A stretch of DNA of 48,490 nt from a virus. Positions 32,535 to 36,322 of the stretch are shown in pieces. The translations under genes were made by a program, and so were the position numbers. Positions within the stretch are counted from its first letter, which is position 1. Every line of letters begins with the position of its first letter. Where the stretch lies: IMG/VR virus record IMGVR_UViG_3300030333_006863, positions 1-48,490 of that record; one strand, 5' to 3'. A model generated the notes under the pieces. The model saw only the letters and a list, made by a program, of their open reading frames with translations. It was not told the DNA's origin and made no database searches.

Positions 32535-32565
32535 ACTATAGGGGCCATTTCTGACCCCTTATAGT
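32535..32565 (-). promoter_or_regulatory. 3' hairpin after the E1-like gene
   Basis: ACTATAGGGG (32535-32544) pairs with CCCC-T-TATAGT (32555-32565, one bulged T), a 10-bp stem with a 10-base loop starting at the E1 stop codon. No T-run follows on the minus strand, so it is probably an mRNA-end or stability element upstream of the true terminator at 32269. Confidence 0.5.
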
Positions 32566-33455
32566 TATGTAGTAAGGCGACTTTTATCCATAGTAGATAG
32601 TAAGGTCATACTTGGAAAGTTAAAGGTAATTTCAGGATTGACTAAAGAAGTTTCATCAACTATTTTTCGTACTTGATTATTAATAAATGCAGCTGCCATT
32701 GAAGCACAATAGCCTGTACTTCTTGCATTGCATGGTTCATTATCTCCATCTTCATCAGGATACCATGTTTCCATATATTCTGATTTAAATTCTTCTACTC
32801 TATCTCTAAGATCATCTCTGTATCTTTGACCTTCTTCTCTATGCATATCATGAGTCCAATCGTGTTCTTCATATCCTTCGATACCTTCACCTCTATCTCT
32901 TAATTCTGGATTAAAATGAAATATGTTAGATTGAAATGTTTCACTACCCATTCTAGCATCAATTACATATATATTTCTATAATTTCCAGACCTATAATGA
33001 TCATCTTCTCCATTACCAGGTATTCCATACTCCCAATGCTTAAATATTTTATCACAATATTTTTCCATTACTTTAGATCTAGCATTCATGCTATCAACTC
33101 CAATAATTAAAATTTGAGTATCTACTTGACTAGGAATACTTAACCAACTACGACTCCAAGTCATATCAGGCTCATATCTATTAGGTACTTTTTTTATTCT
33201 AATTGCTGGATTAACTTCTGTCATTTGCCTAGCTAACATATTAACCTTACTTTTACCAATATGACTAGTATTGAAATGTTGAACTCCAATATTAACTGTA
33301 GCAACAACATCATTATCATATATAGAAAAAGTTTTACCACCTGCTCGAGCTAGAGCCATGGCAGTATAACTACCAATGGCTCCACACCCTACAATAAGAA
33401 AATGAACTTTATCAATGTTGTAAATGTTTTGAAATCTCGCTGTAAGCTGACTCAT
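32565..33455 (-). CDS. E1-like ubiquitin-activating (ThiF/MoeB) enzyme
   Basis: 296 residues. GCGAIGS at 23-29 is the dinucleotide-binding GxGxxG, followed by IYDNDVV (D47, D49), GVDSMNAR at 119-126 (the Asp and Arg of the adenylation site) and a C-terminal segment with Cys242 and Cys250 (PCNARSTGYCASMAAAF), one of which could form the Ubl thioester. E1-like enzymes adenylate the C-terminal Gly of a Ubl and pass it on. The gene overlaps the JAB gene by 44 bases and has GGAG before its ATG. With the Ubl, E2-like and JAB genes upstream, it completes a conjugation cassette. Acting alone it might have been a thiamine or molybdopterin sulphur-transfer enzyme, but no such pathway genes are present. 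Confidence 0.88.
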   Translation of the reverse strand: MSQLTARFQNIYNIDKVHFLIVGCGAIGSYTAMALARAGGKTFSIYDNDVVATVNIGVQHFNTSHIGKSKVNMLARQMTEVNPAIRIKKVPNRYEPDMTWSRSWLSIPSQVDTQILIIGVDSMNARSKVMEKYCDKIFKHWEYGIPGNGEDDHYRSGNYRNIYVIDARMGSETFQSNIFHFNPELRDRGEGIEGYEEHDWTHDMHREEGQRYRDDLRDRVEEFKSEYMETWYPDEDGDNEPCNARSTGYCASMAAAFINNQVRKIVDETSLVNPEITFNFPSMTLLSTMDKSRLTT

Positions 33456-34539
33456 AATTTACTCCTTCAATCTCTTCTCTTACTAAAAGATCATCGAATC
33501 CACTTAATGTATCCATTTGACTTGGAATATGTAGCTTCATATTATACTGCTGCTGTAATCCTCTAATAAGATCTGTTATGTATTTTAAATGTTCTTCTTC
33601 TGTTTTTGATCCATTTGAAAATGTATGCCAACCTTCAATGGCTTGTTCAATATTTCTAATGATCAATTTTTGTTGTTTTTTCTTTTCATCATCATTATTA
33701 ACTGGTTTTCCTAGAAGATTTCCTACATTATTTAAAGATTTTTCTCTTAAGGGTTTTTTCCCTTTTTGAGATAAACCTCTTTCAACATTTTGTATTTCTT
33801 CTTCTATGATATATTCAGGTATATCTCTATCATCTTTTTTATCATTTAATACTTCTTTAGCGTTAATATTTTCCATTAAAGCTTCTTCAGAAGTATATCC
33901 ACCTAATGGAGCACCATCTCCACTAAGATAACTTGAATAACCTAGTTCATCATCAAATAAACAACCTTGCTGCATTCCTTTGTATTCTTCCCATTTAGTA
34001 AATTTCTTGACAGATACTTTTTCATCAATTTCTTTACTAACATCAGGAGTTTCAATACCATAGTCAATAACTATATTAACATCAAAAGAAACTATTTTAA
34101 TATGATTACCATTGATCTTTACAGGAACTGAATAATCAGCTTTATATTCACCATCATTGTTTACAACAATTGCTAATGATGGACCTTTTTCAGCATACTC
34201 TTTTATTGTAGCTGAATCTGTACCTGACCAAAAAGCTTTCATTGTATGATGTGAATGCCACCAGCAAAACATTAATTTATTTGGTAATAATTCACGATAC
34301 TTTTTTGCAGTTTTATCTACATATTCAACAATAGCTTCTTTATCCAGTGTCGTATTACTACCACTGCATTCTTGAGTCAAGATAGAAGGTGTTCCTACTG
34401 TCATTTTTCCATCATCATCAATAAATACAGGACAATACCCACTTACTTCAGTTTTGTATTTTTCATAAGCAGATCTTGCGTAGACAATCATTTTATTAAA
34501 ATCTTGTCCACTCATATAAACTTTAAGTTTATCTTCCAT
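33412..34539 (-). CDS. JAB/MPN+ metalloprotease (deubiquitinase-like)
   Basis: 375 residues from the ATG at 34539, with GGGAGA upstream and an 11-base overlap with the E2-like gene. The JAMM motif is complete: E31 (EVSG), then H95-S-H97, seven residues, S105-x-x-D108. This is the zinc-dependent isopeptidase site that cleaves ubiquitin-like proteins. Residues 110-375 form a long extension rich in charged residues, with no other catalytic motif, perhaps for binding substrate or other members of the cassette. Expected roles are trimming the Ubl precursor and removing Ubl from targets. Confidence 0.9.
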   Translation of the reverse strand: MEDKLKVYMSGQDFNKMIVYARSAYEKYKTEVSGYCPVFIDDDGKMTVGTPSILTQECSGSNTTLDKEAIVEYVDKTAKKYRELLPNKLMFCWWHSHHTMKAFWSGTDSATIKEYAEKGPSLAIVVNNDGEYKADYSVPVKINGNHIKIVSFDVNIVIDYGIETPDVSKEIDEKVSVKKFTKWEEYKGMQQGCLFDDELGYSSYLSGDGAPLGGYTSEEALMENINAKEVLNDKKDDRDIPEYIIEEEIQNVERGLSQKGKKPLREKSLNNVGNLLGKPVNNDDEKKKQQKLIIRNIEQAIEGWHTFSNGSKTEEEHLKYITDLIRGLQQQYNMKLHIPSQMDTLSGFDDLLVREEIEGVNYESAYSEISKHLQH

Positions 34540-35964: not shown

Positions 35965-36007
35965 GAGGGCCTAATAAGACCATCAATAAAATTAGTATTA
36001 GACCCTC
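35965..36007 (-). promoter_or_regulatory. Hairpin between Ubl and E2-like genes
   Basis: GAGGG-C-CTAATA (35965-35976) pairs with TATTAG-A-CCCTC (35996-36007), 11 bp with one C/A mismatch and a 19-base loop, just after the Ubl stop and before the E2 ribosome site. No T-run. It could protect the upstream mRNA end or be a processing site, letting more Ubl be made than enzymes. Confidence 0.55.
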
Positions 36008-36019
36008 AAAAGATTGTTA

Positions 36020-36322
36020 TTACTTATGTGGATCAAATATTGTTTTACCACCTGTTTTATTTCGTGTAAATAGTGAATAAAACTCATCACTTTGTACATC
36101 AGTATCTGTAAAATCAATAACATCACTACCACCAGCACGTACAACAACTTTGCTTGCATCTAAATTAAGTTCATTAACTAATTCATTTACATTTGTAGCT
36201 TTAGTTGTATATGGTTGATAATCGTGACTATCATTTAATAATAAGATAGTTTTTTCAGGTGCATTACTTACTGTATCCACAACTTCTGCTTCTACAGTCT
36301 CTACTGTTTGTTCATGTTCCAT
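36020..36322 (-). CDS. Ubiquitin-like beta-grasp protein (Ubl) precursor
   Basis: 100 residues with AAAGGA before the ATG. After a 22-residue acidic leader come TILLLNDSHDYQPYTTKA (two strands), NVNELVNELNLD (helix), KVVVRAGGSDVID (strand), then TDTDVQSDEFYSLFTRNKTGG. This is the beta1-beta2-alpha-beta3 order of ubiquitin, and the final GG at 91-92 falls where ubiquitin has its C-terminal GG. Eight residues (KTIFDPHK) follow, so the protein appears to be a precursor that must be cut after Gly92. Its neighbours are the three enzymes expected to act on it. Similar Ubls occur in PRTRC-type cassettes. Confidence 0.78.
   Translation of the reverse strand: MEHEQTVETVEAEVVDTVSNAPEKTILLLNDSHDYQPYTTKATNVNELVNELNLDASKVVVRAGGSDVIDFTDTDVQSDEFYSLFTRNKTGGKTIFDPHK

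Follow-up and report, generated by a model that had tools for sequence, protein, structure and literature searches.

A phage-borne gene cassette that very likely encodes a ubiquitin-like conjugation system

Four adjacent genes on the 48,490-base virus contig analyzed here (the window) very likely constitute a phage-encoded ubiquitin-like conjugation system, made up of a ubiquitin-like modifier (Ubl), an E2-like protein, a JAB protease, and an E1-like adenylating enzyme. That the enzymes are active, the direction in which the Ubl passes between them, and the proteins it tags are all inferred, without biochemistry. Computation establishes to which folds or families the Ubl, the E1, and the JAB belong, the presence of intact catalytic residues, the gene order, and the conservation of the GG end of the Ubl. 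The best reading of these results is that the cassette represents a phage lineage of its own among ubiquitin-like conjugation systems, outside Bil, PRTRC, and CBASS, for which activity and targets remain to be demonstrated. An initial annotation of this DNA had already proposed a full Ubl, E2-like, JAB, and E1 set carried by a phage, and the evidence supports that interpretation; its placement of the set in an "early region" and its view that the set modifies host or phage proteins are inference.

The cassette is tightly packed on the minus strand at 32565 to 36322, in the order Ubl, E2-like, JAB, and E1, and all four open reading frames (ORFs) were recovered there as the annotation had described them. 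All gaps and overlaps are small, and a Shine-Dalgarno sequence stands before each gene. Short overlaps join genes 2, 3, and 4, an arrangement consistent with an operon. One shared transcript for the four genes is plausible, with transcription unmeasured; promoter scans of the cassette gave nothing beyond chance numbers.

The Ubl gene (36020 to 36322, minus strand) encodes 100 amino acids, with a disordered N-terminal region of about 20 residues and a beta-grasp domain spanning residues 24 to 88 or so. AlphaFold2, given seven sequences, modeled a beta-beta-alpha-beta-beta core with a pLDDT of about 80 and low-confidence ends, and the best PDB fold matches of this model in Foldseek are all beta-grasp proteins: MTH1743 (E = 8e-4), TtuB, SUMO, Hub1, ubiquitin, ISG15, and NEDD8. 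A structure other than beta-grasp would have refuted the initial annotation, and the fold predicted by these two programs is beta-grasp. A PDB sequence search with the Ubl profile returned nothing useful.

The GG that had been claimed for the Ubl is borne out by conservation, K89, G91, and G92 being invariant among relatives (Gly91-Gly92 codons at 36047 to 36052, minus strand). Eight loci of the window's clade have an exact GG terminus: the Ubl ends ...ARNKTGG-stop in L015, ...SRNKSGG-stop in L016, and ...SNDKVGG-stop in L018, L020, L022, L023, L026, and L028. The window Ubl instead reads ...TRNKTGG-KTIFDPHK, with an 8-residue tail (36023 to 36046, minus strand) that is missing in L015, L016, L018, and others and that gives way to alternative tails in L027 (...SNDKVGG-MTYYIKYSK) and L031 (...SNKTGG-LETLNFKVRFTITLEPIV). 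Since relatives either stop at the GG or carry other short tails, comparison of these sequences identifies the GG as the functional, mature end and the window protein as a precursor; the tail, overlooked by the initial annotation, is predicted to be cleavable and to be removed by JAB. Among ORFs of 40 to 200 amino acids in all fetched phage loci, 10 of 1791 (0.6%) end in GG, and 9 of the 10 occupy the Ubl position. The Ubl of crAss-type phages has KIKSG[A/x] as the corresponding motif, usually followed by a longer extension. One feature of ubiquitin-like systems, a beta-grasp modifier with an exposed or exposable C-terminal Gly, is therefore present in the Ubl.

The JAB gene (33412 to 34590, minus strand) encodes a JAB/JAMM metalloprotease of 392 amino acids, or of 375 from the more likely start at 34539 (MEDKLKV), which a Shine-Dalgarno sequence precedes. 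Its Prok-JAB match (E = 6.5e-4) lies under Pfam's cut-off, and the JAB family profile matches CSN5, JAMM1, and archaeal Rpn11-like chains in the PDB. The motif HSH-x7-SGTD (34216 to 34257, minus strand) contributes H112, H114, S122, and D125, and E48 is the Glu. The pattern of a JAMM metalloprotease, Glu plus HxH-x(7-10)-SxxD, is thus fulfilled, in agreement with the intact JAMM motif reported earlier, and the JAB identity is firm. In Xanthomonas phage PhiXhv-12 (L011), the Ubl already terminates in SGG and no JAB was found within the 12.4 kb fetched, a combination that we count in favor of the conjugation-system reading; that locus (2796 to 6672), a variant from a jumbo phage, carries genes for the Ubl, the E1, and an E2-like protein.

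The E1 gene (32565 to 33455, minus strand) encodes 296 amino acids with a single ThiF domain (Pfam ThiF, E = 3.1e-22), an assignment that also draws on invariant residues and on the tree described below. With a profile that includes phage relatives, the closest solved structures are UBA5 (the top PDB match), MccB, TcdA, ThiF, and UBA1. Residues invariant in the alignment with relatives include R7, G23, G25, D47, D49, K70, D121, and C242. The last of these, within NEPCNARST (codon at 32730 to 32732, minus strand), aligns with the Cys of MoeB/TcdA-type enzymes and is the proposed catalytic residue. A GxGxxG motif and the adenylation Asp/Arg had been claimed for this protein: the Asp residues and an N-terminal Arg stand, whereas the Arg of MoeB's NxxR does not, being Val in the window and replaced in all ten aligned phage E1s. 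The adenylation site, loss of which would have spoken against the initial annotation, is largely intact with this one Arg replaced. An ATP-binding Rossmann site and a catalytic-type Cys, as expected of the E1 in a ubiquitin-like system, are present, the NxxR Arg excepted. We regard both the E1 identity and the catalytic-type nature of Cys242 as firm.

The E2-like protein is the least certain assignment in the cassette, resting on a chain of profile comparisons alone; judged on that chain, its putative E2 identity is well supported. The gene (34529 to 35944, minus strand) encodes 471 amino acids, with a long N-terminal helical region and a C-terminal Cys cluster. A Pfam search with the protein gave no match, and a PDB sequence search with the E2 profile gave nothing useful. 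As for a UBC fold, whose absence would likewise have told against the earlier claim, the profile link is positive and the AlphaFold2 model, with a mean pLDDT of only 41, is unusable. P220 and C234 are invariant in twelve aligned homologues, and C234 (codon at 35243 to 35245, minus strand) is the proposed catalytic Cys. In the same alignment, the C-terminal CxxCxxxxC cluster (34841 to 34867, minus strand; C360-x2-C363-x4-C368, with C327 upstream) has C363 and C368 invariant and C360 and C327 nearly so, and it is by conservation a probable zinc site. Of the H-x-x-x-CLGD active-site-like loop proposed earlier, the Cys (C234) holds; the closest relative, L015, does not share the His, which was rejected as a catalytic residue. 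The position of the HPN-type His is Gly in the window protein.

In related phages, the E2-like motif appears in textbook form (HPHIHENGSICWG in L032, HPHISGSGHACFG in L055), and the HPH-x7-C spacing of these HPHIHENGSIC-type motifs is close to the HPN-x7-C of UBC enzymes. In hhalign, the window E2 group scored 36 to 39 against the HPH group, compared with 13.7 or less for 57 of 60 column-shuffled alignments; the other three were spuriously high and were set aside as artifacts, the one inspected being a 10-column match across a gapped end. The HPH group in turn scored 40 (E = 1e-5) against four eukaryotic UBC enzymes, with shuffles reaching up to 15.8. These four reference sequences were not retrieved from a database. 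As a yardstick, CBASS Cap2 E2 domains scored 34 against the same UBC set. The direct score between the window E2 and the UBC profile is weak (21). With an invariant Pro and Cys, the HPH-x7-C spacing in homologues, and profile scores far above shuffled controls, it is improbable that the 471-residue protein is instead a substrate or adaptor and that the functional set is Ubl, E1, and JAB only, a reading that takes its support from the lack of a Pfam match and of a usable structure. Long Cys-rich C termini with repeated CxxC occur in the E2-like proteins of L079 (5618 to 6937), L055 (5147 to 6934), L092 (5611 to 6885), and L011 (3298 to 5976). No Pfam zinc-finger family reached its cut-off in these C termini; E2-E3 (zinc finger) fusions are possible.

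The cassette is widespread among phages, including abundant gut phages, rather than unique, a point that the initial annotation overlooked. A search of viral contigs with an E1 alignment returned 136 related stretches, of which 80 were kept; the survey did not cover bacteria or prophages. All 63 loci in which profiles detected all four genes have the order Ubl-E2-JAB-E1, and the window's own clade, too divergent for the Ubl and E2 profiles, was read by hand. Single-protein scans found no relatives, either in viral contigs (with E2, E1, and DUF2828) or in genome contigs (with E1). Carriers include crAss001 (gp79-gp76), DAC15, several uncultured Steigviridae, bajarodcaudo virus 1, Dulem virus 41, and Flavobacterium phage Fpv3 (gp55-gp52); in cr106_1, a small ORF of its own encodes the Ubl, and an HNH endonuclease gene lies between this ORF and the usual C-terminal extension. 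Records label the cassette genes "thiamine biosynthesis protein," "E1 enzyme family protein," "metalloprotease," or "hypothetical," and the present analysis suggests functions for phage genes bearing the first and the last two of these labels. In a quick E1 tree, all phage E1s fall to the same side of a branch with support of 91 (100 for the window's clade); the tree contains only eight cellular sequences and has several long branches.

Next to the cassette in the window is a gene for a Sak4-like single-stranded DNA-annealing ATPase (31465 to 32238, minus strand; phrog_124, E = 2.7e-24), a conserved neighbor outside the cassette, and then a primase-helicase gene. A Sak4-like gene also adjoins the cassette in L015, L017, L018, L020, L021, and L031. 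More generally, homologues of primase, Sak4, exonuclease, uracil-DNA glycosylase, or resolvase lie near the cassette in 60 of the 66 loci with enough flank, and 6 have no replication or recombination genes nearby. This neighborhood suggests, without proving, a role in phage DNA metabolism; it could reflect phage modularity only, given the six loci without such a context.

In the JAB gene, group I introns (Rfam RF00028) fall between the codons for the two His residues of JAMM in L038 (5423 to 5669), L060 (6151 to 6363), and L067 (5543 to 5802); in the E2 gene, one lies at MH/SH, within the MHSH codon run, in L037 (4213 to 4444). Most group I introns in the cassette contain an ORF resembling a homing endonuclease, usually in the opposite orientation. 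L041 and L070 have a break at about this position and no Rfam match. Mobile introns often sit in conserved catalytic sites, and insertions at the JAMM His and E2 MHSH codons fit the functional importance of the JAB and E2 genes. L060 has a second group I intron, at 87 to 320, outside the cassette.

How does the cassette relate to known systems? Operons with E1, E2, JAB, and Ubl genes occur in bacteria, and phage tail modules can contain a Ubl with JAB (Iyer 2006, PMC1779556). The anti-phage operon BilABCD resembles the window cassette in having four genes with the same roles, as assigned in PMC11354881, and in the same order by lettering (Ubl, E2, JAB deubiquitinase, E1), and a Ubl precursor processed by JAB. 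However, BilA contains two Ub domains, and BilD is a pseudodimer built from two domains and carrying a Cys domain (2024 review, PMC11354881), whereas the window has a single-domain Ubl of 100 residues and a single-ThiF E1 of 296, and its cassette sits in a phage rather than a defense operon. The best 25 PADLOC matches of the window E1 are CBASS-type E1-E2 models, and BilD is not among them. We rejected membership in Bil on the single-domain Ubl and on an E1 without inactive plus active adenylation domains. PRTRC, a plasmid/bacterial system that by our own assignment resembles type 6d of Iyer 2006, likewise brings together small Ubl, E2-like, JAB, and ThiF genes. The window cassette scores 33.4 bits with TIGR03736 (cut-off, 144.75) and 11.8 with PRTRC_A (cut-off, 101.8) and has no match to PRTRC_B; the PRTRC_ThiF score of a comparison plasmid locus (L095) is 126.4, itself just under the cut-off. 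PRTRC membership was rejected, as the cut-offs of TIGR03736, TIGR03735, and TIGR03737 were not reached. That the cassette belongs to neither Bil nor PRTRC is a further point that the initial annotation lacked.

Type II CBASS (Cap2/Cap3) shares the E1, E2, and JAB chemistry, but Cap2 fuses E2 with E1 and conjugates cGAS itself without a Ubl (2023 study, PMC10097602), unlike the separate genes and Ubl of the window. No CD-NTase or other nucleotidyltransferase was recognized among the neighboring genes scanned, and on these two grounds membership in CBASS was rejected. The tail-assembly TAPI/TAPK pair of lambda and T1 is also a phage-borne Ubl and JAB (PMC1779556), but it comes without E1 and E2, in a tail module, and with an NlpC/P60 fusion; the position of the window cassette beside Sak4 and primase-helicase rules it out of this group. 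UFM1/UBA5 and other single-domain E1 systems have a similarly minimal E1, in keeping with the UBA5 structural match, but they are cellular and distant in sequence. A survey of crAss-like genomes (PMC7886860) does not mention ubiquitin, and the open-access literature searched yielded no account of a complete phage-borne cassette. Subscription papers and preprints were mostly outside this search, and an earlier report is possible.

Beyond the substrate or adaptor reading weighed above, the function of the set could be construed in two other ways. We give little credence to a sulfur-carrier pathway, in which a thiocarboxylated Ubl would donate sulfur like ThiS, MoaD, or TtuB, for example in nucleic acid modification, with no protein conjugation. 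MTH1743 and TtuB are indeed the best fold matches of the Ubl, the Ubl of one relative (L092) passes Pfam ThiS, and the E1 has a single ThiF-type domain with ThiS adenylyltransferase as its best NCBIfam match; however, every complete locus contains an E2-like gene, nearly always with a recognizable conserved Cys, which speaks against a simple sulfur-carrier role; the scanned neighbors yielded no rhodanese or sulfurtransferase gene, and the JAB resembles deconjugases. Alternatively, the same conjugation chemistry might be aimed at host defense proteins, by tagging them or by competing with Bil, CBASS, or others. Placement among replication and recombination genes makes this unlikely, as does the very wide retention of the complete set across divergent phages, a pattern more in line with a core function than with a variable anti-defense gene. 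It is not excluded: related enzymes are used by bacterial defense systems (PMC10097602; review, PMC11354881), and the E1 resembles PADLOC E1-E2 (CBASS Cap2) models.

Returning to the reading that we prefer, a phage-encoded conjugation system, we infer that JAB would cut the pre-Ubl after Gly92, releasing KTIFDPHK, and that E1 would adenylate the GG end and probably hold the Ubl as a thioester on Cys242. E2 would receive the Ubl on Cys234 and, perhaps assisted by its own zinc-like C-terminal domain, attach it to a lysine on a target; JAB would also take the tag off targets. By inference, the likeliest targets are proteins, from phage or host, that act in replicating and recombining phage DNA, since the cassette is usually found among genes for these processes. 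One can envision a broader picture, held tentatively and with a little less than even confidence: an ancient, phage-owned lineage of complete ubiquitin-like machinery, separate from Bil, PRTRC, and CBASS and common to crAss-like, Flavobacterium, jumbo, and small phages, which sits in DNA replication/recombination modules, has some E2s fused to zinc-finger modules that are maybe built-in E3s, and controls phage DNA metabolism through the reversible tagging of proteins.

Ubiquitin-type tagging in bacteria has been described so far mainly as anti-phage defense or housekeeping sulfur chemistry. If phages, the cultured crAss001 and DAC15 among them, own a complete and broadly conserved tagging pathway, that view would be turned around; ubiquitin-like conjugation is already known, and it is the phage-owned lineage that would be new. 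Virus-owned tagging of this type is now directly testable. With K-T-G-G at the end of the mature Ubl, tryptic digestion is expected to leave T-G-G attached to the lysines that carry the tag.

A few other features of the window were recorded. A small basic 56-amino-acid ORF (36333 to 36503, minus strand), with no family match, ends 10 bases before the Ubl start, and a DUF2828/DUF7788 protein gene (36705 to 38102, minus strand; phrog_850, "RNA-binding protein") shares the strand of the Ubl gene and lies upstream of it. The phage carries a tRNA-Met (CAT) gene at 39864 to 39938 (minus strand), and the half of the window holding structural genes contains a very large ORF of 2978 amino acids (13392 to 22328, plus strand).
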